From Bacteroidota bacterium (GTDB taxonomy: Bacteria; Bacteroidota; Bacteroidia; Chitinophagales; Saprospiraceae), in contig PZPC01000005.1 of the NCBI GenBank assembly GCA_003045895.1, positions 1 to 64,000 of the forward strand: DNA of 64,000 nt, read 5' to 3'. This document shows, piece by piece, positions 58 through 37,082 of the stretch. The position numbers and the translations under genes were made by a program. Under the pieces are notes generated by a model. It was not told the origin of the DNA and searched no databases. It was given only the letters and a program-made list of their open reading frames with translations. Position 1 is the stretch's first letter; the number at the start of each line of letters is the position of its first letter.

Positions 58-64
58 TTATCCC

Positions 65-290
65 CTATTCGTGCAACAAGGCCTCGGAATGCCCAACAAT
101 TCCTGTATCAGGCGCACATCCGTGCCCGATTCTAACAAGTGGGTCGCATAACTGTGGCGCAAGGAATGAAAACTCACACGCTTGCTGATGCCTGCCTTTT
201 CTTTCGCGCGCCGAAAAATGGTCTGCAAGCTTCGCGTCGAGTAGCATTCGCCAGGAAACTGCCCCTCAAGAAGCCAGTGCTTAGGCTTGG
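65..290 (-). pseudogene. Tyrosine recombinase (phage/XerC-D type integrase) C-terminal remnant
   Basis: The translated fragment contains [28 protein letters not shown] and [15 protein letters not shown] followed by LIQELLG, the catalytic-domain signature of tyrosine recombinases with the first box Arg and the HxxR box. After LLG the frame breaks. In the next frame the sequence continues GHSEALLHE and stops, so one G appears to be missing in the run at 92-94 (LLGHS would be restored). The catalytic Tyr segment and the whole N-terminal half are absent. The 5' end of the reading frame is supplied by a repeat (290-319) that matches the end of the MITE-like element at 55080-55243. It is a dead remnant marking past mobile-element activity. 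Confidence 0.75.
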
Positions 291-319
291 GAGAAGTTAT
301 TATTCGCCGACCCTTTAAC
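290..319. repeat. Solo copy of the MITE-type terminal sequence
   Basis: Read on the minus strand this stretch contains GGGTCGGCGAATAATAACTT, matching the left terminal sequence of the element at 55080-55243 (GGGGTCGGCAAATAATAACTT there) at about 24 of 28 aligned positions by eye. It sits exactly between the integrase remnant and the stop codon of the DUF4143 ATPase. The TAA stop of that gene (315-317) lies inside the repeat edge, suggesting a recombination or insertion junction. Confidence 0.6.
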
Positions 320-1451
320 TCACCCATTCCAAATAATTTTCAGGATTCACTACTTCAAAGCTGGCATCAGGGTAGTTGTTTTTCCAGCCGCTGGGGGCGG
401 AAGGGGTTTTCTTTTCATTCCACTTGAATTCGTATCCATACAGCTTCCCGCCTCTGTCTTCAACCCAGTCAATTTCTTGTTGGTCATAAGTTCGCCAGAA
501 GTAATTGTATACCAGCATATTGGAATAGTGCTGAAACTTTATTCTTTCAGCCACCATATAGTTCTCCCAAAGGATTCCCCTATCATTTCTCAGGTGGATG
601 GGGTTCAAATTACCAATCAGCATATTGCGAATTCCGTTATCCAGAAAGTAGTACTTACTGCTCTTATTAACCTCTTTTCTAAGGTTTCTACTAAAGCCAC
701 CTACCTTTTGTAGGATAAAGACTTTGGTGAGTAAATCCAGGTATTTATCAACCGTATTTCTGCTAATTTGCAGTGCGTTAGCCAATTCTGTGATTTTCAC
801 CTCGCTCCCAACCTGGAATGCGACCAGCCGCAGCAGATCAATTATCTTATCCGAATTGCGGATGGTTTCAAAAGTCAAAATATCTTTGAGTAGATAGGAA
901 TTAACCAAGTCTCGGAGATAAAGGGCTTTCTCCTCGTCTGTTTCAAGTTGAAACAACTCGGGATAGTTGCCAAAGATAAGCCGATCATGTAGCTTGTCTT
1001 TCTTTCCGGGCAAAGACTCTCGGGGAAGAAGTTCACCCTCGGAAATGGCAAAAATTTTAAAGGTAGTCTTTCGTCCAGTCAAGGGTTCTCCGGTATAGTT
1101 TTCCACATCAAATGCGGAAGAGCCTGTAATTAATACCTTCAAGCCCTCTATTTCGTCAACCATTAATTTAAGCGCATTTCCAATGTCGGGAATTTTTTGG
1201 GCTTCATCAATAACAAGTAGTTTTTTACCACCCAGGATTTTCGCTAAGGACGCTATACTTCTTCTTTCGAAAAGTTCTTTCGTACCAATGTCTTCACCGT
1301 TTAAAAACTGATAGGGCTCAACCGTTTCGGAGAGGATTTTCTTAATTAAAACAGTTTTCCCCACCCTTCTTGGGCCCAGTAGCACGACGACCTTATTTGG
1401 CTTCAAGTATTTTACAACTTGGGATTCAACCGCTCGAGCAATGAAGTCCAT
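315..1451 (-). CDS. AAA ATPase with DUF4143 C-terminal (PD-(D/E)XK-like) domain
   Basis: A 378-residue protein of the AAA_14/DUF4143 ATPase family. It shows Walker A GPRRVGKT at residues 26-33, Walker B LLVIDEAQ near 78-85, a sensor-like ITGSSAF, a winged-helix stretch ([20 protein letters not shown]) and a C-terminal EIDWVE...YGYEFKW. The last fits the D...ExK core of a PD-(D/E)XK nuclease fold. Family members occur widely in mobile or accessory DNA; their role is poorly understood. The gene is visibly more AT-rich than its neighbours, lies beside an integrase remnant, and starts just downstream of two tandem palindromes (1461-1522). Horizontal acquisition is likely. The start ATG at 1451 leaves only about 10 bp to the first palindrome, so those sites probably overlap its promoter. 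Family assignment is confident, function is not. Confidence 0.85.
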
Positions 1452-1460
1452 ATCCTTGTT

Positions 1461-1522
1461 TTGAACGAATTTACGTTAATTCATTCAATTATTTGAACGA
1501 ATTTACGTTAATTCGTTCAATT
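1461..1522. promoter_or_regulatory. Two tandem palindromes upstream of the DUF4143 ATPase
   Basis: Two near-identical 30-bp units (1461-1490 and 1493-1522) repeat with a 32-bp period. They differ at one base, A versus G, in the right arm. Each is a dyad with arms TTGAACGAATT and AATTCGTTCAA (A in the first copy) around a 6-bp centre. The 32-bp spacing is close to three helical turns, so both dyads face the same side of the DNA. Position and symmetry suggest an operator or recognition site for the adjacent protein or a co-acquired regulator. Confidence 0.65.
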
Positions 1523-1637
1523 GCTGGGTTTTTATGAAATATGCTGCTTAACAAGTATGCTGTCTTATAATAACGTATGAGGTCATACAAAGCACCTTGG
1601 AGTTATACCGTCAATTTTCAAAAAAACAACACCCCCC

Positions 1638-3296
1638 CTACTCCCCCACCTCCCGAAGATAAAACCGAAACGCCCCATCCACCCCCAACAGCTGAAAGTT
1701 GGGGTTGCCATCCAGCAGGGTATTGTTGGCCTTGCTGACCAGGTACACGGGCCTGTCGATGTCGCCGTGGAGCAGCCATTCCTGGTCGCGGTATTGGCTG
1801 TTGGCTTTGGGCTGCTGGCGCGCATAAAACAGGTGCGCGTAGCTCTTGAACCCGTAGGGCGCCACGTACACCTCCTGGTTTTGCAACGTCTCGTAAAAGG
1901 CAACGGCTGGCCCCTGGCTGTAGACCGCTATTTTGGGTACCACCCATAAGTTGGCGGTCAGCAGCAGCAAAAAGGTCGCCAAGCCCAGCACGCTGAGTCC
2001 GGACAGGATGTTGCGGCGTTTGAAATGATAAACCGCCAGGATTACCCCGGCAGCGAATCCGAGACCAATGAACGATTCCCACCCCGTCCAATGCACCTCG
2101 GTCTGGAGGGAGGCGACGGTCAGCACATCCCGCTGCAACAGCTCCACCAAAAGCTCCTTGTGCCTGCCCACCACCGGCAACAAGGCGATGGCACCACCCA
2201 GGATGCTGCCAAAGACCAGGATGGCCCGGCGCAACCAGCGGGGCATCGCCACCCCCTGTTCCAGCAGCCCAAAGACGTACTGCGCCGCAAAGAAAGAAAG
2301 CGGCAAATAGGCCAGGGAGGAGTAGTGGACAATTTTGGTAGACACGATGCTGAACAACACCAATACCACCCAAAACAGGAGGAACTGCCATTGCGCAAAG
2401 CCATCGGAAGCGCCCGCTGGCTTTTTGAAGAGTTGCGGCAGCGCCATAAACGACATGGGAAAACAGCCCAACAGCACCACCAGAAAATGGTAGTAAAAAG
2501 GCTGCTGGTGCCCCGCTACTGGCTTGGAGAACAATTCGATCTGGTAATTCAGGAAGGCGTAAGTCTTTTCAATCCCGTGGTAAAAAACATCCAGCGACAG
2601 CCACGTAGCCAACGGCAACAGCCAGGCCAGCGCAAACACCAGCAAGCCCGACCAACGGGGGAAGCCCTGCCCCCGGTTCCACAACAGGTAGCCACCTACC
2701 GTGAGGCCAAAGAGCAGCAACCCAACGGGGCCCTTCGTCAGCACGGCCAGGGCGTTCAACAGGCCCGCCGCCAAAAACCAGGGCAGCCCCGACGTACCCT
2801 TCGCGGGCGGGGAAGCAGATCCAGCCGCCATGCCCTGGACAAAACAGTAGATCGAAACAAAAATGAAGTAGTTGAACACCGGATCGATAATGCCCGATTT
2901 GAAGTAAAAATGGGGCAGCAGCGCACCGTAGTACAAGAGCACCCAAATGATGCCAAAACGGGTGTTGCGGTAGCATTTCCCCATAAAAAACAAGGTAAAC
3001 AGGGTAAGCCCGCCAAAGACGGCATTGGGAAACCTGGCGGCCCATTCCCCTACCCCCAAGGTGTACATGGCGGCCGCCTGCAACCAGATATAGAAGGGTG
3101 GCTTTTCGTGAAATGGCAAAAAAACGATCCGGGGTGTCAGCCAGTCGCCGGTGATCAGCATCTCCCGGGCGCATTCGGCAAAGTTGATTTCGTCCCAATC
3201 AAAGAGGTGGTTGTAGCCCAACAGCAAGAAGTAGGACAAGGACAACAGCGCCGTAACGCCCAGGTAGTACGAGGTGCTCCTATGAGTTGTTTTCAT
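1638..3296 (-). CDS. ArnT/PMT-like glycosyltransferase (GT39/GT83 type)
   Basis: A 552-residue polytopic membrane protein. The N-terminus has one membrane helix followed by FDWDEINFAECAREML, the acidic first-loop motif of PMT/ArnT-type transferases that use polyprenyl-phosphate sugars. KPPFYIWLQAAA and an ARFPNAVFG segment, then about ten further hydrophobic helices, are also typical of the family. It would add a sugar to lipid A, a lipid or a protein on the periplasmic face; the acceptor cannot be told. Its ATG is 1 bp from the stop codon of the upstream PHP-domain gene, so the two are one operon. A basic/polar C-terminal domain follows the helices, as in ArnT. Confidence 0.8.
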   Translation of the reverse strand: MKTTHRSTSYYLGVTALLSLSYFLLLGYNHLFDWDEINFAECAREMLITGDWLTPRIVFLPFHEKPPFYIWLQAAAMYTLGVGEWAARFPNAVFGGLTLFTLFFMGKCYRNTRFGIIWVLLYYGALLPHFYFKSGIIDPVFNYFIFVSIYCFVQGMAAGSASPPAKGTSGLPWFLAAGLLNALAVLTKGPVGLLLFGLTVGGYLLWNRGQGFPRWSGLLVFALAWLLPLATWLSLDVFYHGIEKTYAFLNYQIELFSKPVAGHQQPFYYHFLVVLLGCFPMSFMALPQLFKKPAGASDGFAQWQFLLFWVVLVLFSIVSTKIVHYSSLAYLPLSFFAAQYVFGLLEQGVAMPRWLRRAILVFGSILGGAIALLPVVGRHKELLVELLQRDVLTVASLQTEVHWTGWESFIGLGFAAGVILAVYHFKRRNILSGLSVLGLATFLLLLTANLWVVPKIAVYSQGPAVAFYETLQNQEVYVAPYGFKSYAHLFYARQQPKANSQYRDQEWLLHGDIDRPVYLVSKANNTLLDGNPNFQLLGVDGAFRFYLREVGE

Positions 3297-3297
3297 T

Positions 3298-4437
3298 TTA
3301 CCGCTTGATTATTAAGGTCCAACGCCACAGGATACCACCACACACCAAAAAGACCGCTATCCGGAAGATCCCGGTTTTGAAATAATTGACCCGGAGGGCT
3401 GGTGCGTAGTTGGTGGGCACCGCAGCGCCCGCATACCGAAATACCGGATTCAGGTACAAGGCGCTGGTTTTGCCTTCGGCAAATACACGGGCGTAGGTAT
3501 CGGTGGGCGAGAATTGGTAGCGAACGGAGTCGGCGTTCAGGGTTTGCTGCAGCACCTTACCGTCCTGACCAATGACGGTAATGCGACCAGCGGGCTCCTG
3601 AAAATAGTGGACAAAGCCATTGGCTATCTCCCGGGAGCGCACCAGAAACAGGCTTTGTTGCCCGGCCCAGGCATCCACCCCGTAGGCCGCGCCGGTGGTC
3701 ATGGCGGACAGCACCGCGTCGACTGATTTTTCCGGACTAAAGACCATGGTGAAGCGCTGAAAGGTCAGTTCCTTGACCAGGTCGTGGGTATCATCACTGG
3801 CATTGACGTAGACCGGATGCCCGGCAGACAGGGCCACGTCCCAGCTTTTGTCGGAAATGCGGTAGTGATTCAGCACCTCCAGCAGGGAATAATTCACGAG
3901 GTGCTTGAGGTCGTAAAGCGAATGGCCGTGCAAAAATTCCGGGTGGGCAATGATGGGCGTCGCCCCGTTGTCGTTGAGCAGTTCTAAAATGTGTTGCTTG
4001 TGGGAAGGCAACTGAAAGAGGGGAAAATCCAGGTAGGAGACGCGCGCTGCATTCAGGGCCAATTTGTGGGCCTTGAACACATTGTAACCGTGTTCATAAT
4101 TGGGCATGTAGAGCCGGTTGGTGTGTTTGAGGTGCTCATCGATATCGTGATAATTGGATATCCCGGTGATATCGTACCCGCGGCCCGTGTAAGCGGCAAT
4201 CATTTCCGGACCGGAATCGTGGCCATTGGTCAGGCCACCCCAGGCGGTGGTATGGGCGTGCCAGTTGCACTTTAGGGGGTCCACACCGGCGATACCCAGG
4301 TAGGGGTTGTACAGTTGGTCGCCGCTGAAGGGCTGACTTTCGGGAAAGTCGTACAGCCGGGTAAACGCGTACAGCCCACCGATGGCCAGCAAGGCGAGGC
4401 AGGTGATGGAGGATAAAATTTTAATAAAAAGCTTCAT
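3298..4437 (-). CDS. Membrane-anchored PHP-domain phosphoesterase-like protein
   Basis: 379 residues from the ATG at 4437. A longer frame to 4497 adds 20 residues but MKLFIKILSS starts a clean membrane anchor. Metal-binding PHP motifs are visible: HAH in CNWHAHTTAWGG, a D/H pair in GISNYHDIDEH, IAHPEF, and NASDDTHD. PHP domains hydrolyse phosphoesters using clustered metals. A second hydrophobic helix lies at the extreme C-terminus, so the catalytic domain is probably held outside the cytoplasmic membrane between two anchors. It is translationally adjacent to the ArnT-like transferase, suggesting a shared role in envelope glycolipid or polyprenyl-phosphate metabolism. That pairing is inference. 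Confidence 0.75.
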   Translation of the reverse strand: MKLFIKILSSITCLALLAIGGLYAFTRLYDFPESQPFSGDQLYNPYLGIAGVDPLKCNWHAHTTAWGGLTNGHDSGPEMIAAYTGRGYDITGISNYHDIDEHLKHTNRLYMPNYEHGYNVFKAHKLALNAARVSYLDFPLFQLPSHKQHILELLNDNGATPIIAHPEFLHGHSLYDLKHLVNYSLLEVLNHYRISDKSWDVALSAGHPVYVNASDDTHDLVKELTFQRFTMVFSPEKSVDAVLSAMTTGAAYGVDAWAGQQSLFLVRSREIANGFVHYFQEPAGRITVIGQDGKVLQQTLNADSVRYQFSPTDTYARVFAEGKTSALYLNPVFRYAGAAVPTNYAPALRVNYFKTGIFRIAVFLVCGGILWRWTLIIKR

Positions 4438-4626
4438 GGTCTGTTTGCTCCTGAAATTGTAGCGTAAAATTAAAAGAAATTCAGGATGCTGCACCACTCG
4501 CCAGCTCCTTTATGGAAGCAGCTTTTCGGCCACTTGCGAAAAGACGTCCTCCTGGTTGTTGCCATTTCCAGCGCCCCAACTGGTGCGGTGGGAACAATTT
4601 CCCTGCGAAACCCAACCCAAAGCGCG

Positions 4627-4634
4627 TATCTTTG
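4627..4634 (+). promoter_or_regulatory. uvrA -7 promoter element
   Basis: TATCTTTG matches TAnnTTTG and lies 28 bp before the ATG at 4662. It sits inside the upstream extension of the open frame, which argues that translation starts at 4662 and not at 4512. Confidence 0.6.
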
Positions 4635-4661
4635 TTGTTCATTGCAGACCAATACCAAAGC

Positions 4662-7502
4662 ATGAGTTCAGTACGTACACCGGAGGAGCACGCCGCCGAA
4701 AAAGCAGCCCTGCGCACCGCTATTTTCATAAAAGGAGCCCGGGCCAATAATTTGAAAAACATCAGCCTGGAAATCCCCAAGAACAAACTGGTGGTGGTGA
4801 CGGGCGTTTCCGGTTCGGGCAAATCGTCGATCACCATGGACACCCTCTTCGCCGAGGGGCAGCGCCGCTACGTGGAGAGTTTGTCGTCGTACGCACGCCA
4901 GTTCCTGATGCGGATGAAGAAGCCGGACGTAGACTACATCCGCGGCATCTGCCCGGCCATCGCCATTGAGCAGAAGGTGAGCACCTCCAATGCCCGCTCC
5001 ACCGTGGGCACGCTGACCGAAGTGTACGACTTCCTGCGGCTGTTCTACGCGCGGGTGGGGCGCACGTTTTCGCCGGTCTCCGGCCAGGAGGTGAAGAAAC
5101 ACGAGGTATCCGACGTCGTCGACTACCTCCTGCAACTGCCCGCCGATACCAAGGTACTGCTCTACGCCCACCCACCCACCAAATACCAGGACCGGATCAT
5201 GGGCGCCGAACTGCAACTGCTGCTGCAAAAAGGCTTCACCCGTGTGCGCTGGGACGGCGAGCTTCAAGACATTCAGGAGTTGCTGGAAACGGGCAAGCCG
5301 TTTCTGAAAGAACAGCTGAGCGCCCAAAAGCAAGAACTACTCATCCTCGTGGATCGCTTTGTGATCAAGCCCGCTGACGAAGAAAATACCAAACGCATTG
5401 CCGACTCGGTGCAGACCGCCTTCTACGAAAGCGAAGGCGACTGCCGGGTGGTGGTGGTCGATGGCGAGGAGCGCACCTTCAACAACCGCTTCGAACTCGA
5501 CGGCATGCTCTTCCTGGAGCCCAGCCCCCAGTTGTTTAACTTCAACAACCCCTACGGCGCCTGCCCCAAGTGCGAGGGCTTCAGCATGGTCATGGGTATC
5601 GACGAGCACAAGGTAATCCCCGATCCGTCGCTGAGCATCTTCGACGGGGCGGTAGCCTGCTGGAAGGGTGACAAATTCGGGCAGTGGCTGGACGCTTTCA
5701 TCGAGGTTGCGCACCAGGTGGACTTTCCTGTGCACACCCCCTACCAGGACCTCACCCGCGCCGAACAGCGCCTGCTGTGGCGCGGCAACGGCCTCTTCGA
5801 CGGCATCAACTCCTTCTTTGCCGAACTCGAAGCCAAACTCTACAAGATCCAGAACCGGGTGATGCTGGCCCGCTACCGCGGCCGTACGCTGTGCCCCGAA
5901 TGCGAAGGCAGCCGCCTGCGGGCCGAAGCCAACTACGTGCTGGTAGCAGGTAAACCCATTGCCGACCTCGTAGACATGCCCATCCAGGAACTGTTGCAGC
6001 ATTTTGCTGACCTGGAACTGAACGAGAACGACAGCAAAGTGGGCCGTCGCCTGCTGCTGGAAATCAATAACCGCCTGCAATTTATGGTAGACCTGGGCCT
6101 GGGTTACCTGACGCTGACGCGCCTGTCGAACAGCCTCAGCGGTGGCGAAACCCAACGCATCAACCTCACCCGTACCCTGGGCAGCAACCTGACCAGCTCC
6201 ATGTACCTGCTCGACGAACCGAGCATCGGGCTGCACCCCCGCGATACCCACCGGCTGGTAGGCGTACTGTACCGGCTGCGCGACCTGGGCAACACCGTCG
6301 TCGTGGTGGAACACGAGGAAGATGTGATCAAGAGCGCCGATTACCTCATCGACATTGGCCCCGCAGCGGGCATCCACGGCGGCGAGGTGGTCTTTGCCGG
6401 CCCCTACAGCGACATCTACCACGAGGCTACCGAAAGCCTGACCACCAAGTACATGAGCGGCCGCATGCAGATTCCCGTGCCCGAGCAGCGCCGACCCGTA
6501 AGCAATTTTCTGCGCGTGCGCGGCGCCCGCCAGCACAACCTGAAAAATATCGACGTCGACATCCCACTACACGCCATCACCGTGGTGACGGGCGTATCGG
6601 GTAGCGGCAAAACCAGCCTGGTCAAAGACATCATCTACCGGGCGTTGAAAAAACACCTGGAGGGCACGTACAGCAAGTCGCCGGGCGTGTACCGGGCCCT
6701 GGAGGGCGAAGTGAACATGATCACCCAAATAGAATTGGTCAACCAGAGCCCCATTGGCAAGTCGTCGCGCTCCAACCCCATCACCTACGTCAAGGCTTAC
6801 GATATCATCCGCACCCTGATGGCCAACCAACAGCTGGCCAAGATCAGGGGCTACAAGCCGGGCCACTTCTCGTTCAACGTCGAAGGCGGTCGCTGTAGCG
6901 ACTGCAACGGCGAAGGCGAGCAGGTGGTGGAAATGCAGTTCCTGGCCGACATTCACCTGGAATGCGAAACCTGCCACGGCAAGCGCTTCAAAGCCGAAGT
7001 GCTGGAAGTCCGCTACCAGGGCAAAAATATTTTCGATATCCTCAACCTCAGCATTGAAGAGGCCCTGGAATTCTTTGCCGACCACGATGACCTGATCGCG
7101 AAAATTCAGCCCCTCTCCGACGTGGGCCTGGGTTACGTAAAGTTAGGACAGGCCTCCTCTACCCTCTCGGGTGGCGAGGCCCAGCGCGTAAAGCTGGCCA
7201 GCTACCTGGGTAAGGAAAGCAGCAAAGACCACGTCTTCTTTATCTTTGACGAACCGACGACCGGCCTGCACTTTCACGATATCCGCAAGCTGCTCGGCGC
7301 TTTCAACGCGCTCGTAGAAAAGGGCCACACCGTACTGGTGGTGGAACACAACCTGGAAGTGATCAAATGCGCCGACTGGCTGCTGGACCTGGGCCCAGAA
7401 GGTGGCGACGCCGGCGGTCACCTGGTCTTCCAGGGCCGCCCGGAAGACCTCGTCCTGGTGGAGGAATCTTATACGGGGCAGTTTTTGCGGGAGAAGCTTT
7501 GA
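4662..7502 (+). CDS. uvrA: Excinuclease ABC subunit A
   Basis: 946 residues, the usual UvrA length. It is the damage-recognition ATPase of nucleotide excision repair, loading UvrB. Two ABC modules are evident: Walker A GVSGSGKSS at about residues 48-56 with signature LSGGETQRINL near 492, and GVSGSGKTS in the second half with LSGGEAQRVKL near 835. Zinc-finger cysteines are CPKC (about 300) with CPEC (about 410), and CSDCNG...CETCHG (about 744-770). The frame is open from 4512, but MSSVRTPEEH at 4662 aligns with normal UvrA starts and follows a promoter. It is convergent with the outer-membrane gene at 7778, separated by tandem repeats. Confidence 0.97.
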   Translation: MSSVRTPEEHAAEKAALRTAIFIKGARANNLKNISLEIPKNKLVVVTGVSGSGKSSITMDTLFAEGQRRYVESLSSYARQFLMRMKKPDVDYIRGICPAIAIEQKVSTSNARSTVGTLTEVYDFLRLFYARVGRTFSPVSGQEVKKHEVSDVVDYLLQLPADTKVLLYAHPPTKYQDRIMGAELQLLLQKGFTRVRWDGELQDIQELLETGKPFLKEQLSAQKQELLILVDRFVIKPADEENTKRIADSVQTAFYESEGDCRVVVVDGEERTFNNRFELDGMLFLEPSPQLFNFNNPYGACPKCEGFSMVMGIDEHKVIPDPSLSIFDGAVACWKGDKFGQWLDAFIEVAHQVDFPVHTPYQDLTRAEQRLLWRGNGLFDGINSFFAELEAKLYKIQNRVMLARYRGRTLCPECEGSRLRAEANYVLVAGKPIADLVDMPIQELLQHFADLELNENDSKVGRRLLLEINNRLQFMVDLGLGYLTLTRLSNSLSGGETQRINLTRTLGSNLTSSMYLLDEPSIGLHPRDTHRLVGVLYRLRDLGNTVVVVEHEEDVIKSADYLIDIGPAAGIHGGEVVFAGPYSDIYHEATESLTTKYMSGRMQIPVPEQRRPVSNFLRVRGARQHNLKNIDVDIPLHAITVVTGVSGSGKTSLVKDIIYRALKKHLEGTYSKSPGVYRALEGEVNMITQIELVNQSPIGKSSRSNPITYVKAYDIIRTLMANQQLAKIRGYKPGHFSFNVEGGRCSDCNGEGEQVVEMQFLADIHLECETCHGKRFKAEVLEVRYQGKNIFDILNLSIEEALEFFADHDDLIAKIQPLSDVGLGYVKLGQASSTLSGGEAQRVKLASYLGKESSKDHVFFIFDEPTTGLHFHDIRKLLGAFNALVEKGHTVLVVEHNLEVIKCADWLLDLGPEGGDAGGHLVFQGRPEDLVLVEESYTGQFLREKL

Positions 7503-7519: not shown

Positions 7520-7647
7520 GTGTAAAAGTGTAAGGGTGTAAAAGTGTAAGGGTGTAAAAGTGTAAGGGTGTAAAAGTGTAAGGGTGTAAAAGTGTAAGGG
7601 TGTAAAAGTGTAAGGGTGTAAAAGTGTAAGGGTGTAAAAGTGTAAAA
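7520..7647. repeat. 16-bp tandem repeat array, about 8 copies
   Basis: Unit GTGTAAAAGTGTAAGG repeats without interruption from 7520, seven exact copies plus a final variant. It begins 17 bp after the uvrA stop. No spacers separate the units, so this is a VNTR-type array and not a CRISPR. Confidence 0.95.
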
Positions 7648-7663: not shown

Positions 7664-7770
7664 CGTTTACACCCTTACACCTACCCAACCTTTACACTTG
7701 ACCCTTTTACACCTACCCAACCTTTACACTTGACCCTTTTACACCTACCCAACCTTTACACTTTTACACG
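7664..7770. repeat. 32-bp tandem repeat array, about 3 copies, opposite polarity
   Basis: Units built from CCTTTTACACCTACCC and AACCTTTACACTTGAC repeat with a 32-bp period. The sequence is roughly the complement of the preceding 16-bp array (TTTTACAC versus GTGTAAAA), so transcripts could fold back across the two blocks. It ends just before the stop codon of the minus-strand gene at 7778. Confidence 0.85.
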
Positions 7771-20605: not shown

Positions 20606-23600
20606 CTACATTTTTAGGAATTTACGCACCAGCAATTCCTCGCCATTTGTTGCCTGCAACAGCAGCAGGTATACGCCCGGGCTCAGGGTACTTACATCGA
20701 CAAAAAACCGATTGTCCAGTACTTCCTGCGGACGGCGTACCACCAATTGCCCCTGCACGTTGAATAACCGCACTTCCAGGCTACCGGTGTAGGCGTAGTG
20801 TACCGTCAGCCGATCTGTAACCGGGTTGGGGAACACTTTGGTGAGGGCAAACAGATCTTCTCCATTACAGTCTTCGTCGATCCCATTGTCGGCAATCTCC
20901 GGCTGGTTCGGATGGATGCCCGCATTGCCGTCGTCACAATCGGTATCGTCCGTTACGTACCCGGCGGGCGGAAAAGTAATACAGGTATCCACTGTGGTCG
21001 CGGCGTCGCCGTAGCTGTCATTGTCCGCATCGCGGAAATAGGTGAACAAGACCAGGTTCTCGTCGATCAATCCATCGCAGTTGTTGTCGATTCCATCACA
21101 AACTTCCACCGCGTTGGGGTGAATAGTGGCGTTGGTGTCGTCGCAGTCGAAACTATTGACTACGTAGCCGGCGGGCGGGAAAGTAATACAGGTGTCGGCG
21201 GTGACCGCGGCGTCGCCAAAACCATCGCTATCCGTATCGGCAAAGTAGGTGAACAGTGGCAAGTCTTCGTCGATCTGACCATCACAATTGTTATCCATGC
21301 CGTCACAAACTTCTATCCCTAGCGGGGAGATAGCAGGGTTCTGGTCGTCGCAATCGCCCGTCGTTGCCACCAATTCGGCCGGCAGAAAACCCCGTTCCGG
21401 ACGCAGGCAGGCCACGGTAGTTGTGCCATCACCGTAGCCGTCGGCATCCCGATCGAGGTACCAGGTCTGGCCCGGAAACTCGTTGCCGTTGGCATCGTTG
21501 CAGTCGGTTGCATCTGCTACGTAGCCCGCGGGGACCGTACAGGCAAGCGTAGGGTTGTTGGCATCGCCAAAACCATCGTTGTCGGTATCGGCATAAAAGG
21601 CCAGTTGAACACCTTCGTCGATCTGGCCATCGCAGTTGTTATCCAGTCCGTCACAAATTTCGGGCGCGCCCGGATAAACGGTGTTGTTGGTATCGTCACA
21701 GTCCTGGTAGCTAAAGAAGCCATCCAGGTCTTCGTCTTTGTAGAAAAGGTCCTGGGCTTTGGCAAAGACTTCGTTGCCAATCTCGATACCGATCAGGCGG
21801 CCGGGGATATCGTCGGCCGGCGGGTGAATACCGCCCCAAATGCGGGACAGACTGCACTGGTCGGAGGCGTCGCGGTAGGTAGCCCACTGCAAGGTGATGT
21901 CCATGCTGGGGCCATCTTCGAAGACCAGGAACTCGTTGTGCGGGGCCAGGAACTCGCCCATGCCGCCAGGAAAGTAAGCATCGCCGGTAATGGCAGTCAT
22001 CACTTCGGCCGCTGCCCGCGAGAAGGTGGAGTGTCCGGAAAGGTAACCGGCAAAATTGGGGGATACGAAAGAAGGCCGCTGGTAAGGCCACCAGTTTTCG
22101 GCCAGGATCCAACCCACGCCGGCATCCTGGATTTCGGGAATGGTCACAAAATCAGGGCCGCGCCAGGCCAGCAGCTTGACCTTGCCCACATGTTGGCCAT
22201 TCAGCCCCGCCAGGGGGTCACCCGGCATTACCAGTTCTATTTTTCCGTCCAGCAACGGCAGGCCACCCGGATGGTAGGAAGGCAGCCCCGGGTCGGTGCT
22301 TTGTCCCAGGTCGGCCATCCCCCGAATGGCGGAAACCGGCCGGGGGTAATCGTACCAGCCCTTGATCCCCCAGATGGAGATGGCTACATCGTGCATGGCC
22401 CCACCGAGGGTGAGGTAGGATTTGACGTCCCACTCCAGGTCATCCACCACATCTCCCTGGCCAGCGAATTTCTTCACGAGGGCCGGGTGGTCGCTAACGT
22501 AATTCAAAAGCGTAAACCAGTGTCCGGGCGGTGTTTCCGACGCCGGGCCGTCGGCCCAGAACTCGGCCAGTACCCGGGCATAATCGCCCCGGGGAACCAG
22601 CTGCGGTTCGTAGGGCTGGCCGGTGGCAGGGTTGAGGTCGCGGCCTTCCCCAATATCGCCGCCGTCGACCAGGTTGTAGAAACCCCTTAAGCCGGGAATG
22701 GTGGTGGGGTAATCTTCCACGGCAATATTGCCAATGCTGGCGGGCGAGATATCCCACAGCACGCCGTCATCGGGGGTCATGTGGGAAGACCAGGCAGCTA
22801 CCAGCTCAAAACTCCACTGGTATTCGCTGCTCAGGCCACCGCCGGTCTGGGTGTCCAGGGCCGGTGGTGGACCGGGGTCGTGGTAAACCCAGTAGTCGCC
22901 GCCGTCGCGCTGGTAGATGGTCAGTTCGTCGGGCGTCAGGGAGAAAGGAACCACCTTACCCCACTCCGGGCTCAAAAAAGGCGGTGTGTTGCCGGGAATG
23001 ACGTTGCCGCTCTGGTCGATAAAGATACTGAGGGTCAGGGGCTGCCAACGGTTGAAGTCAACAATATCGGGGTTACCGGGCAACGACACGATGAGTGGTG
23101 GGTTGACGGGTTGGTAGTATTGGTTGGCGTAACCCAGTTGTTCGTTGGAACCGTCCTGGCGGCCAAAAAGAATCATTTCTGCGGCCAGGTAGTTGCCCAG
23201 GGCAGCGGGCGAGCCCCCGCTGTAGTCGGTGGACACAAAATTGGGGTCGTAGCCCAACTGCTGCATCAAGACATTGAACCGGTTGAGCGTAACAAAAGCA
23301 TTCGGAGAATTTTGAAAGCGGGAGCGCAACAGGCGGTAAGCAGCGTAACTGATGGCTTCATCGCGGGCAGCGGCAACGTCGGTCGGCGCGGGAATACCCG
23401 TAAAGGGGCATTCAAACCCGCCGACTGATCTTCCTAAGAAAAAGGGTTCTGCCTCGTCATCGTAAGCGGCCCAGGCGTCGTACATGACCACCGAGGTGTG
23501 GAACAAGTTGCGGGCGTGAACGGTCGGTCGGGCAAAATCGTTGCGAATGGCCTGCAAAAGCGCTTCATTCCATTCCCGGGCGACGGAATGCTGGGCCAGT

Positions 23601-27432: not shown

Positions 27433-29964
27433 CTAAAAATAGAAATAAGTACCCACCACCACACTGAAGCGGCTCGCCTCGGGGTTGTCCAGGTAGTTCA
27501 GGCGCCAGAGGGCATCGATGCGAATGACTTTCAGGATATTTTCAATACCGATACCCGCTTCCATAAATGGCTTTTCACTGGGAGCCCGGAATCCCGTATA
27601 CACGGCAGCGCCCCTTTGTGGCTCGAGCGCATTGAGGCGGTTGGCAGCCTGATTTTGGGCCGACATGCGCCCAATAACCGCTTTAAAGATAGCTACTTCG
27701 CGCCATTTCAACTTGCGCAACAAGGGGATATGGTTGAGGAAGAAGCCGTCGAAGTGGTGCTCCATAATGACGCTGGCGTAGGTGTCTGCTACAAATTCGT
27801 AGCTGTTCATGGTATTAAAAACCGCACGGGACATAAAGATGGCTTCGTTACCAGGGAGCACGTCTAACAATAAAAACGGCAAGGTTCCCCGCGTAGCGCC
27901 CACCTTCACGCGGTAGGCAAACCAACCTGCCGGACTGGTATTGAACCAGTGCCGCAAGCCCACCGACAGTTTGTGGTAACTGTATTGACTCCCGAAAAGG
28001 TCGGGTAGCCCCAACGTGTACTGTGCTTCCAGAACCGGCTTGGAGGTTCCCGAGCTCACCCGGTTGAACCGCTCGCCGAGGAAGCTTTCGCCGGGTGCAT
28101 AGCGCAATTTCAGGATTACTTCGGTGGTATTGAGGGTGGTGTCAATGGTTTCACCACCCGGCTTGACAAAGGCGTACTTAAAGCCGCCGTCTCCGCCATT
28201 GCCATAGGGGTCCATACTGCGGTTCAGGACCGTAATGCGGTTGGACAAGCCACTGTTCCAGTAGCGTTCGTAATAGACTTTGGTCTCTTCTACATTAATG
28301 AGTTTGAGGTAGACGTTGCGGCGAAAAGAGCCGGAGAACAGGTTGCCTTCCAGAAAATCTTCGCTGTTTTCGCTGTTCAAACTGATGTCCTGGCGATGCG
28401 CTGCGCCAATGATCGTCCAGGGATACTGACTGAGCAGCCATTTGAGTTCAGTGCCGTACTTCCAGCGCTCGTCCTGGAACCCGTAAGCGGCATAACCACT
28501 CAACCTGATATTTTCGCTCAGGTCATCGTCGGTGCGCAGGCCCAGGCGCAGGCGGGTCCCCTCCACCTGGTTGTTGCTCAGCACCGAAAAGTAGGGACCC
28601 ACCTCCACCTTACCCAGGTCGATATACCCCCCGAAGAGGGTACTCAACACTTCGGTGTAGGTTTTGAAAGCCGGTACATTCTGGATGCTGTCCACCAGTG
28701 AATAGATGGTGGATTCGGTTTTGGAAAGCGGTTCGTGGCGCACGCTTTGCCAGAAATCCTCGTCGCTGATGAGCGGCGGCGGCGCGACGGCTTTTTTGGG
28801 TTTTTCCGGAAAATCGGCTTGGATTTCGGCAGCGTTGAGCCGGTAATCGCGGAAAGTTTCGGTACGGCGGGCAATCATCCCCGGCGCTTTTTCGGAGGGG
28901 GAAAAATCCACGATCATCTTTTGCTTGACGGGGAGCCAGTTGGCCCCTTCGCGTTGGTACTCCTGGTAGATGATGATCCTTTTGACCAGGTTGATGTTGA
29001 CATTCGGGCTCATCCGCATATTGAGCCGCTCTATGGCGAAAGTGGTATCAGCTACCCAGAAATCACCAAAGAAGGTCGTTTCCTGTTTGCGGCGGGGCTT
29101 GAACTTGAGTTTGTAGCTCCACTGCCCGCTAACGACTGCACTATCCAGGATATAGTATTCGTAGTAACTCAATCCCGCATCGGAAAATGGGCTGACGAAT
29201 GGTTTTTCCAGCACGTCGATCCAGTTGTCGTAGACGTTAAACGGAGCGTGGATCCTGCGGATAAAATCAATAAAAGAAGCATTGTCGGTACCCGAAGCCC
29301 GCTGGGCCTTGATGAGGGTAGCCCGGCGGCCAACGGCTTCGGAGTAGAAGACATCGCTCAGCACTTCGTTGATGTAGATGGGCAGGAAAGGCTTTTCGTC
29401 GGAAGTGCTGTCAATGCTTTCAAAAACAAAATCGAAGGGGTCCAATAGTCGGTTCTTCCGGATTTTTTCGGGAATCTTCTCAAAATCCAATTCTACCTTG
29501 GCATAACTTTCGTATTGGTAGGCTTGCTGGCTTTCCAGGCGGTTGCGTTCCTTGTTGCTGATAATTCCACGCACAATGGCGTTGGCCGGGTTTTCGCCAG
29601 CGAGTACCACTACTTCGGCCAGGGTCATTTCCGCTCCGGGCAGGCTGAAATTGATGACTTGTGAGGTCTGTTTTGCCAGGATTTTGTACTGGGAAGTAAA
29701 CCCGATAGCCGAAGCCGTCAGCGTATCCCGCAGCTCCTTGACGGAAAGTTCGTAGTAGCCATCGACATCGGTGGAAACCCCAATCGTTGACCCTTCGTAA
29801 TAGACATTGCAAAAGGGAATCCCTTCGTCGGTATCGGCATCGGTTACGCGGCCGGTGATCAAGTACTGTGCCTGAGCCGGCACCGTCCACAGAAGCAGGA
29901 AAGCTGGCAAAAACCAGCCCCGACGACCACTCGCCAGGAGCTTAGCCACAAGTTGGATTTTCAT
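27433..29964 (-). CDS. DUF5686/carboxypeptidase-regulatory-like outer-membrane protein
   Basis: 843 residues from the ATG at 29964; the frame opens 90 bp earlier, but the signal peptide (FLLLWTVPAQAQ) starts here and a promoter lies between. Residues about 28-115 form a CarboxypepD_reg-like beta-sandwich (ITGRVTDADTDEGIPFCNVYYEG...STDVDGYYELSV). The rest matches the DUF5686 pattern and ends in a beta-barrel-like region with an aromatic terminus (YLDNPEASRFSVVVGTYFYF). Predicted outer-membrane location, function unknown. Separate promoter, not in an evident operon. Confidence 0.9.
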   Translation of the reverse strand: MKIQLVAKLLASGRRGWFLPAFLLLWTVPAQAQYLITGRVTDADTDEGIPFCNVYYEGSTIGVSTDVDGYYELSVKELRDTLTASAIGFTSQYKILAKQTSQVINFSLPGAEMTLAEVVVLAGENPANAIVRGIISNKERNRLESQQAYQYESYAKVELDFEKIPEKIRKNRLLDPFDFVFESIDSTSDEKPFLPIYINEVLSDVFYSEAVGRRATLIKAQRASGTDNASFIDFIRRIHAPFNVYDNWIDVLEKPFVSPFSDAGLSYYEYYILDSAVVSGQWSYKLKFKPRRKQETTFFGDFWVADTTFAIERLNMRMSPNVNINLVKRIIIYQEYQREGANWLPVKQKMIVDFSPSEKAPGMIARRTETFRDYRLNAAEIQADFPEKPKKAVAPPPLISDEDFWQSVRHEPLSKTESTIYSLVDSIQNVPAFKTYTEVLSTLFGGYIDLGKVEVGPYFSVLSNNQVEGTRLRLGLRTDDDLSENIRLSGYAAYGFQDERWKYGTELKWLLSQYPWTIIGAAHRQDISLNSENSEDFLEGNLFSGSFRRNVYLKLINVEETKVYYERYWNSGLSNRITVLNRSMDPYGNGGDGGFKYAFVKPGGETIDTTLNTTEVILKLRYAPGESFLGERFNRVSSGTSKPVLEAQYTLGLPDLFGSQYSYHKLSVGLRHWFNTSPAGWFAYRVKVGATRGTLPFLLLDVLPGNEAIFMSRAVFNTMNSYEFVADTYASVIMEHHFDGFFLNHIPLLRKLKWREVAIFKAVIGRMSAQNQAANRLNALEPQRGAAVYTGFRAPSEKPFMEAGIGIENILKVIRIDALWRLNYLDNPEASRFSVVVGTYFYF

Positions 29965-35464: not shown

Positions 35465-35535
35465 GGTCACGTGGCCGAGCGGTTAGGCAAAGGTCTGCAA
35501 AACCTTGTACAGCGGTTCGAATCCGCTCGTGACCT
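35465..35535 (+). tRNA. tRNA-Cys (GCA)
   Basis: 71-nt cloverleaf: acceptor GGTCACG pairs with CGTGACC, D-arm region GGCCGAGCGGTTAGGC, anticodon stem AAGGT/ACCTT with loop CTGCAAA (anticodon GCA), and T arm AGCGGTTCGAATCCGCT. The discriminator base is T, as expected for tRNA-Cys. No CCA is encoded. A terminator follows. Confidence 0.97.
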
Positions 35536-35544
35536 CAAGCTTCT

Positions 35545-36444: not shown

Positions 36445-36454
36445 GAAGGAAGGT

Positions 36455-36520
36455 GGAAAGGTGTAAAAGTGGAAAGGTGTAAAGGTGGAAACGTGTAAAG
36501 GTGGAAAAGGGGTAAGGGTG
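36455..36520. repeat. Degenerate GTGTAAAGGTGGAAAG run
   Basis: Successive GGTGTAAAAGTGGAAA / GGTGTAAAGGTGGAAA-like units, about 17 bp each, begin just after the crotonase stop. The same core occurs at 7520-7647 and 45421-45460. Confidence 0.75.
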
Positions 36521-36543
36521 GGCAGCCCAAAATCTTAAATTTT

Positions 36544-36594
36544 AAATCGTAAATCTTACCTCTTAAATTATTTAAGAGGTAAGATTTACGATTT
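36544..36594. repeat. Perfect 24-bp hairpin, 3-nt loop
   Basis: Positions 36544-36567 are the exact reverse complement of 36571-36594, with loop TTA. The arm core is CGTAAATCTTACCTCTTAAA. It has no adjacent T-run except a T7 at about 36607, so it may act as a distant terminator for the crotonase or be a mobile palindromic repeat. Confidence 0.9.
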
Positions 36595-36993: not shown

Positions 36994-37082
36994 CCTCCGA
37001 TTTTGATCACCGCGGCCATTTCCGCCCTCCGATTTCCCACCTCCGATTTTGATCACCGCGGCCATTTCCGCTCTCCGATTTC
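36994..37082. repeat. 46-bp tandem duplication
   Basis: CCTCCGATTTTGATCACCGC plus GGCCATTTCCGC begins at 36994 and again at 37040. The two copies are identical except one base over 43-44 positions. It ends 5 bp before the hemL stop. Confidence 0.85.

Follow-up and report, generated by a model that had tools for sequence, protein, structure and literature searches.

Why should the gene for an ATPase with a nuclease-like domain be headed by a pair of palindromes, and what reads them? The question arises near the start of a 64,000-nt stretch of DNA from a member of the Bacteroidota (contig PZPC01000005.1), which we refer to throughout as the window. A first-pass annotation, made from the letters of the sequence, had proposed that the DNA-acting ATPase encoded there recognizes a symmetric site at its own promoter. 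The gene begins with ATG and encodes a protein of 378 aa. Pfam finds AAA_14 at residues 19–142 of this protein and DUF4143 at residues 189–345, and the PADLOC profile PDLC04789 (PDC-S01) matches essentially all of it, residues 4–377, with an E-value of 5.9e-152; by this whole-protein match it belongs to the PDC-S01, or AAA_14–DUF4143, family. The Walker residues G26, G31, K32, D82 and E83, and the PD-(D/E)XK residues E296, D328, E341 and K343, are conserved at 0.99–1.00 across 215 homologues. An AlphaFold2 model (mean pLDDT 88.4, pTM 0.87, from a 19-row alignment) comprises an ATPase part, a winged helix with its recognition helix at residues 231–243, and a nuclease-like part with strands at 315–321, 326–333 and 336–342, the domain names being our own reading of the secondary structure. 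Residue conservation and the modeled order of strands and helices together place the acidic and lysine residues of a PD-(D/E)XK motif, D328…E341-F-K343, in a nuclease-like fold, so that the AAA module, winged helix and D…ExK segment of the original description are all present.

The palindromes, too, are much as first described: two near-identical dyads, 32 bp apart, precede the start codon, each of them 28 bp long (Table 1). They form part of a 31-nt direct repeat, 1460–1490 and 1492–1522, whose copies are 97% alike and lie 32 nt apart, start to start. Tandem Repeats Finder returns the same array (32 × 2.0). Nine bp separate the proximal dyad from the ATG, and 4 bp lie between the two dyads. 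When fitted as a row of alternately inverted half-sites, the region yields four of them, from −71 to −8 relative to the start codon, with a z of 12.2. We considered a CRISPR array, in which unique spacers part the repeats, and rejected it: here the whole 32-bp unit repeats, and those 4 bp are all that separates the dyads.

Table 1. Features of the locus, and residues and bases of four further loci
Feature	Position	Strand	Basis
Truncated tyrosine-recombinase remnant (context only)	58..327	-	ORF, Pfam
AAA_14 + winged helix + DUF4143 (PD-(D/E)XK-like) protein, PADLOC family PDC-S01	315..1451	-	ORF, Pfam, PADLOC, AlphaFold2
DUF4143 domain match, with D328, E341, K343	417..887	-	Pfam, homologue alignment
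Codon 322 (Tyr), loop of nuclease-like domain; paired with bases 12–13 of the half-site	486..488	-	Covariation, contingency, model, held-out arrays
Codons 230–232 (Ser-Arg-Asn), N-end of recognition helix; paired with bases 5, 7 and 6 of the half-site	756..764	-	Covariation, disjoint pairs, model, held-out arrays
Putative operator array: four 16-bp half-sites, 1459–1474, 1475–1490, 1491–1506 and 1507–1522, alternately inverted	1459..1522	-	Array fit, repeats
Proximal 28-bp dyad	1461..1488	.	Repeat analysis, genome pattern search
TAAATTCG inside proximal dyad, one mismatch from TANNTTTG; TAAATTTG there in homologue L012	1466..1473	-	Sequence
Distal 28-bp dyad, 13/14 paired	1493..1520	.	Repeat analysis, genome pattern search
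Viral L266: DRK, TCC			Read by eye
Gut phage record L287: DPK, TCC			Read by eye
Bacteroides finegoldii L258: SKT, TGGC			Read by eye
Treponema saccharophilum L259: DSL, TCGA; base 5 only			Read by eye

These dyads are not chance occurrences, because in the 5.57 Mb of their own genome the dyad pattern, with up to three mismatches allowed, matches only the two sites in the window, and a control pattern matches none. Across 84,980 species, each represented by a single genome, the exact pattern occurs at one place in one record, counted on both strands since the pattern is palindromic. The record, L041, belongs to a metagenome-assembled bacterium and has a second, imperfect copy 32 bp from the exact one; both copies immediately precede the gene of a homologue with 78.5% identity. 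The check proposed at the outset, that the dyad should co-occur upstream of DUF4143 genes, therefore has a double answer. Nearly the same letters are found in the closest relatives only, L041 and L012, but the geometry—a 32-bp period, with dyad axes every 16 bp—is found upstream of most homologues in the subfamily.

When 396 genomes of the order were scanned for a generalized pattern, TTGACNNAATTN6AATTNNGTCAA with up to one mismatch, 22 of them yielded 27 matches; the reversed-pattern control yielded 8, in 6 genomes. Thirteen of the 22 loci immediately precede a DUF4143 gene, and nine do not. Among the nine, L247 and L256 have two adjacent dyads each and L251 has three half-sites, and these look like orphan arrays that lack a subfamily gene; apart from these and L249, described below, the off-gene matches may be due to chance, as the control suggests. 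L248 has a single dyad. No subfamily gene lies within about 1.5 kb of the orphan dyads at L247, L248, L251 or L256, although a distant DUF4143 relative is found near L251, and it is possible that these dyads are relics of lost genes, or extra targets. A degraded dyad of the TTGAC type is present elsewhere in the window's own genome (L249; contig C30, 23811–23838), with no such gene in the 2.5 kb examined around it; it looks like a decayed array.

How general is the arrangement? Homologues were taken, among the matches listed, from 60 relatives and from 295 genomes of the class, 396 of the order and 395 of the phylum. Two duplicates of the window (L001 and L002) were left out beforehand, and the enlarged set, after removal of three partial matches and one further duplicate, holds 228 homologues, 215 of them with at least 35% identity. 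In the first set, a lag scan of the 150 bp before the start codon finds a significant direct repeat (p ≤0.05, 60 shuffles each) in 87 of 125 homologues, with a period of exactly 32 bp in 74 and of 33 bp in 7. Averaged over 112 homologues, upstream self-identity reaches 0.429 at lag 32 and 0.350 at lag 64, compared with about 0.29 at most other lags. The lag-32 peak in the mean is absent upstream of 102 other ORFs and in 115 3′ flanks, four of which individually contain a lag-32 repeat. The 28-bp dyad is present in the upstream regions of 142 of the 215 homologues but in only 13 of 215 when these are shuffled; it occurs in 21 of 214 regions at −300 to −150, in 7 of 215 inside the gene, and in 25 of 210 3′ flanks. 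The spacing between dyad axes is 16.0 bp in 52 axis pairs and 32.0 bp in 25. The model of alternating 16-bp half-sites fits 174 of the 215 above the 99th percentile of shuffled regions, most commonly with four half-sites (89/174), and in 41 the fit is not above the null.

The rule covers most of the subfamily, at about 35% identity or more, and not the DUF4143 family as a whole. Of the 13 members with less than 35% identity, one has a strong 32-bp repeat and five pass the array fit; a common 32-bp period was not found in these or in other distant members (on plasmids of Thermus, Rhizobium, Rhodoferax and Streptococcus), some of which have repeats of 22, 33 or 40 bp, instead. Matches occur in 547 plasmid records and 24 phage records, of which eight (among the matches listed) and one, respectively, were examined. 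The 32-bp repeat was found in none of four distant plasmid members, nor in most viral members. A single-protein scan of viral contigs detects no relative; an alignment scan detects 21 loci, mostly distant. Two viral-contig relatives, L285 and L286, only 18–20% identical, have strong 33-bp repeats upstream, which suggests related arrays with another geometry. The 32-bp period is kept outside the Bacteroidota in the case from Treponema, and in Bacteroides uniformis (L261) a 34-letter repeat with period 32 stands before a gene that breaks early. No array is visible to the eye at a locus in Desulfosarcina (L260; residues NNE).

The half-sites themselves combine a constant frame with a variable center. 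Statistics were compiled from 140 arrays (z ≥6.5, axis between bases, 35% identity) out of 179 above the null. The 16-bp half-site has mostly A at position 2, T at 4, a core at 5–9, and AATT at 10–13. The core positions differ between arrays (entropy 1.3–1.9 bits), and positions 3 and 16 are variable, too; within an array, positions 5–7 are kept, with an identity of 0.90–0.91. Twenty different triplets occupy bases 5–7 in 109 resolved arrays, GAC being the commonest (45/109), and the 71 fully resolved arrays contain 37 kinds of 5-bp core. On this evidence the frame is common to the subfamily, and the address is largely the gene's own. Paralogues in the same genome share a core in 1 of 21 pairs versus about 2.9 expected, numbers too small to support a claim of insulation.

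If the address belongs to the gene, its letters might be expected to follow some part of the neighboring protein, and they do. Covariation was examined in 135 of the 140 arrays, those with an orientation margin of at least 4, orientation having been assigned from a profile of all 16 columns, without protein information. Core similarity was compared with the similarity of each 15-residue stretch of protein, global identity removed. The best stretch is residues 220–234, the helix-turn-helix (r 0.37; the largest maximum in 300 permutations is 0.12), and the best of the 347 stretches that do not include residues 230–232 reaches 0.14. The strongest pairing between single positions is residue 232 with base 6 (r 0.70); other strong pairs in the helix join residue 231 to base 7 (0.53) and residue 230 to base 5 (0.45). 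Residue 322, in the nuclease-like domain, pairs with base 13 (0.56) and base 12 (0.47), and several columns scattered over the protein also correlate with base 13, at 0.30–0.40.

The pairings can be written almost as a code. At residue 232, Asn goes with A at base 6 in 66 of 66 arrays, Lys with C in 12 of 12, Glu with G in 13 of 17, and Ala with T in 6 of 8. At residue 230, Asp goes with C at base 5 (45/45) and Ser with G (50/58). Lys at residue 231 goes with C at base 7 (66/68); Arg there is loose, with A in 13 and C in 8 of 23. At residue 322, Tyr and His both go with T at base 13 (79/79 and 21/21), Thr with A (12/13), and Lys with G (8/8). The window protein has Ser230-Arg231-Asn232 and Tyr322, for which the table, in whose 135 arrays its own is included, gives G, A, A at bases 5–7 and T at base 13; the array reads TTGAACGAATT.

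Shared ancestry accounts for part of this matching, because other columns predict bases 5 and 7 equally well and because of the scattered correlations with base 13. In cross-validation, residue 29 ties with residue 230 for base 5, and residue 98 (0.75) comes slightly above residue 231 (0.73) for base 7. Base 6 stands apart. When relatives at 50% identity or above are excluded, it is called correctly from residue 232 in 113 of 124 cases, compared with 63 of 124 for the nearest remaining relative and 65 of 124 for the majority base; the second-best column scores 0.67. Among 67 disjoint nearest pairs, the combination of 232 with base 6 comes out top of 5968 tests (p 7.9e-7) and alone passes the Bonferroni limit. 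The pairings 231–base 7 (p 1.7e-3), 322–base 13 (1.8e-3) and 230–base 5 (1.1e-2) are significant there only nominally, and several pairs outside the helix rank ahead of them, such as 171–base 16 (2.7e-5) and 159–base 3 (3.9e-5).

Held-out arrays agree. These are 28 arrays outside the 135, with axes between bases only and oriented by flank columns; L026, L110, L126, L139 and L209 are also among the 140. Where the residue is a listed one and the base is resolved, the rules hold at base 6 in 18 of 18, at base 13 in 18 of 18, at base 5 in 13 of 17, and at base 7 in 7 of 9. The orienting columns include base 13, such that 11 Tyr–T agreements and one His–T agreement there lean on the orientation, and five Lys–G and one Thr–A are independent of it. 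Four further loci, read by eye with the rules in mind, fit wherever the rules apply (Table 1). With the variable letters tracking the helix-turn-helix residues of the adjacent protein, the proposal that the ATPase recognizes the symmetric site before its own gene is strongly supported, as far as sequences can speak to it.

What might recognition accomplish? Of 163 upstream regions with an array, 97 contain the motif TANNTTTG, which we take to be the −7 promoter consensus of the Bacteroidota, and 66 do not; the motif turns up in 13 when these regions are shuffled and in 5 of 162 regions further upstream. The copy nearest the start codon overlaps the array in 47 cases, lies within 20 bp downstream of it in 50, and is upstream of it in none. 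This placement favors a role in regulation, yet by itself it would fit repression and activation alike. Partner genes are scarce: the largest recurrent family of neighbors is found at 4 of 102 loci, in a scan that covered flanks to about 1.5 kb and frames of at least 80 aa, and would miss a shorter partner. A toxin–antitoxin pair, which calls for a conserved adjacent partner, was considered and discarded on this count. Since no neighbor family recurs at more than a few loci, the gene and its array form the unit, and the gene's own protein is its natural reader. The locus thus resembles that of a helix-turn-helix autorepressor, in having an apparent operator at its own promoter, read by its own helix.

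We consider it probable that the array is the operator of its own gene, bound by the gene's own protein, most likely to the gene's repression. The winged helix would read the core of the half-site through residues 230, 231 and 232 (bases 5, 7 and 6), and the loop of the PD-(D/E)XK-like domain that carries residue 322 would read bases 12–13 of the AATT flank. Residue 322 is beside the catalytic residues, and its match hints that the nuclease-like domain, too, sits on the half-site, near the axis. Protomers would occupy alternately inverted half-sites every 16 bp, and dimers would repeat on one face of the DNA every 32 bp, or three turns. Protein bound in this way would cover the promoter, which is why autorepression is favored, and would most likely hold a potentially harmful ATPase–nuclease at a low level. 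Release might come about through ATP turnover, through competition by other DNA, or through an invader. The protein, then, is probably a self-addressed, autorepressing ATPase–nuclease of the defense-candidate family PDC-S01.

Other readings must be weighed against this one. A bolder version, which we think unlikely, gives the nuclease a part in the same recognition: helix and nuclease domain would read one half-site, with the active site poised over the protein's own operator, and DNA bearing the same address—the incoming copy of an element, for example, or an invader—would be gripped, and nicked or cut upon ATP turnover. Drift of the address would then split the family into specificity groups blind to one another, much like the immunity groups of phages. 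It is rather improbable that the main use of the array is to mark where the nuclease domain loads or cleaves, in the manner of a restriction or self-exclusion site, with regulation secondary. The match of residue 322 to bases 12–13, which the held-out arrays repeat at base 13, is what one would expect of such an address, as are the near-invariant catalytic residues and, we infer, the two half-sites that face each other across a dyad axis, like a restriction target. Against it, a cut in the array would fall within the promoter region of the gene itself, to the detriment of the carrier; promoter-like sites go with the array; and dyads are much rarer in the 3′ flanks than upstream (25/210 versus 142/215).

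Equally improbable, in our view, is that the protein binds the array as an activator of its own gene and not as a repressor. In 50 of the 97 regions the array ends a little upstream of the −7-like site, as activation would have it, but in the other 47 the two overlap, and an array that ends near a −7 site should also cover the −33 region. A role for the dyads as hairpins of the leader RNA is highly unlikely: they are inverted repeats near a start codon, and G·T-type mismatches on the sense strand exceed A·C-type (480 versus 354, a modest excess in test cells that overlap), but most mismatches are not wobble pairs (A·A 438 and T·T 421 of 2180), much of the array would go untranscribed where the promoter-like site lies in or after it, and the letters covary with helix-turn-helix residues. 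We give as little credence to another host regulator as the binder, or to a transposon or recombination end; the few orphan arrays (L247, L251, L256) and the integrase remnant that adjoins the window copy would suit these, but no neighbor family is shared by more than 4 of 102 loci, few dyads are found in 3′ flanks, the window dyad is unique in its genome, and the letters follow this gene's own protein.

The surroundings of the gene are as the first-pass annotation had them: an AT-rich patch, with the remnant of an integrase alongside. GC content is 40% at 501–1500, compared with 52–62% at 1501–6000. The remnant is a C-terminal fragment of a tyrosine recombinase that matches positions 92–155 of the 172 in the Phage_integrase profile, the match stopping ten residues before the end of the fragment; its N-terminal portion is lost at the end of the DUF4143 gene, and the contig itself begins at base 1 of the window. 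Horizontal acquisition of the patch is plausible. On plasmids of Treponema (L259) and Rhodoferax (L262) the family gene follows a Fic-family gene. The window contains other repeats as well: perfect tandem arrays at 7520–7645 (16-bp × 7.9) and 7675–7763 (32-bp × 2.8), after a long ORF (4512–7502) that resembles UvrA; a 207-bp repeat, 1.9 copies, at 20954–21356; and minisatellite-like repeats at 36450–36568 and 36994–37082, about 1 kb from a tRNA-Cys gene (35465–35536).

PDC-S01 is described as an ATPase fused to a member of the PD-(D/E)XK group, and is placed fourth among the defenses of prokaryotes by abundance, at 29,494 cases in bacteria and 9,986 in archaea (PMC12988326). In a data set from the rumen it is the individual locus met most often (PMC13356809), and DUF4143 is named in a paper on the Argonaute of Thermus (PMC4406477). 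The passages on PDC-S01 in the first two of these papers concern the same protein family as ours and do not mention an operator array. In the literature searched, mostly without subscription papers and preprints, we found no description of such arrays or of DUF4143 regulation, and no mechanism for PDC-S01. If our reading of the sequences is right, most homologues in the subfamily carry their own DNA target with them, and a code of three helix residues and one nuclease-domain residue helps to predict what it is. 'Function unknown' can then give way to direct assays: which DNA is bound, by which residues, and what the ATPase and the nuclease do there, an antiviral action perhaps included. The subfamily may also furnish a set of insulated promoter–regulator pairs.

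Among solved folds, the nearest to residues 1–280 are the archaeal AAA ATPases PABY2304 (2qen; Z 17.1 over 259 residues) and SSO1545 (2fna; Z 16.7 over 256 residues; Foldseek E-value 1.9e-9). The likeness stops at residue 280, the comparison being mostly of ATPase-domain matches that barely cover the nuclease-like part. We know of no operator for either protein. A sequence search of solved structures returns only weak matches to AAA and other ATPases, the best with an E-value of 1.6e-4. The folds of NLR, CED-4, Apaf-1 and Orc1/Cdc6 proteins follow, with Z of about 12–15, mostly over residues 1–281 and some to 345; for the STAND proteins NLR and CED-4 the scores, which are fold scores only, are about 14–15, over ranges from 1–281 to 1–345. 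By these scores the proteins appear to have in common with ours the arrangement of an ATPase with a winged helix, and Orc1/Cdc6 ATPases, moreover, bind repeated DNA sites. The window protein differs in that its winged helix would appear to follow a gene-specific code and has a PD-(D/E)XK-like domain joined to it.

In logic, the closest parallels are perhaps the phage repressors, the toxin–antitoxin pairs and the C proteins of restriction–modification systems, in which tandem dyads at a promoter are read by the helix-turn-helix of the protein made from it, with specificities that differ between paralogues. The locus described here departs from them in two respects: the half-sites keep to a fixed lattice of 16 and 32 bp, and the putative regulator is the ATPase–nuclease itself, with no partner gene common to the loci.
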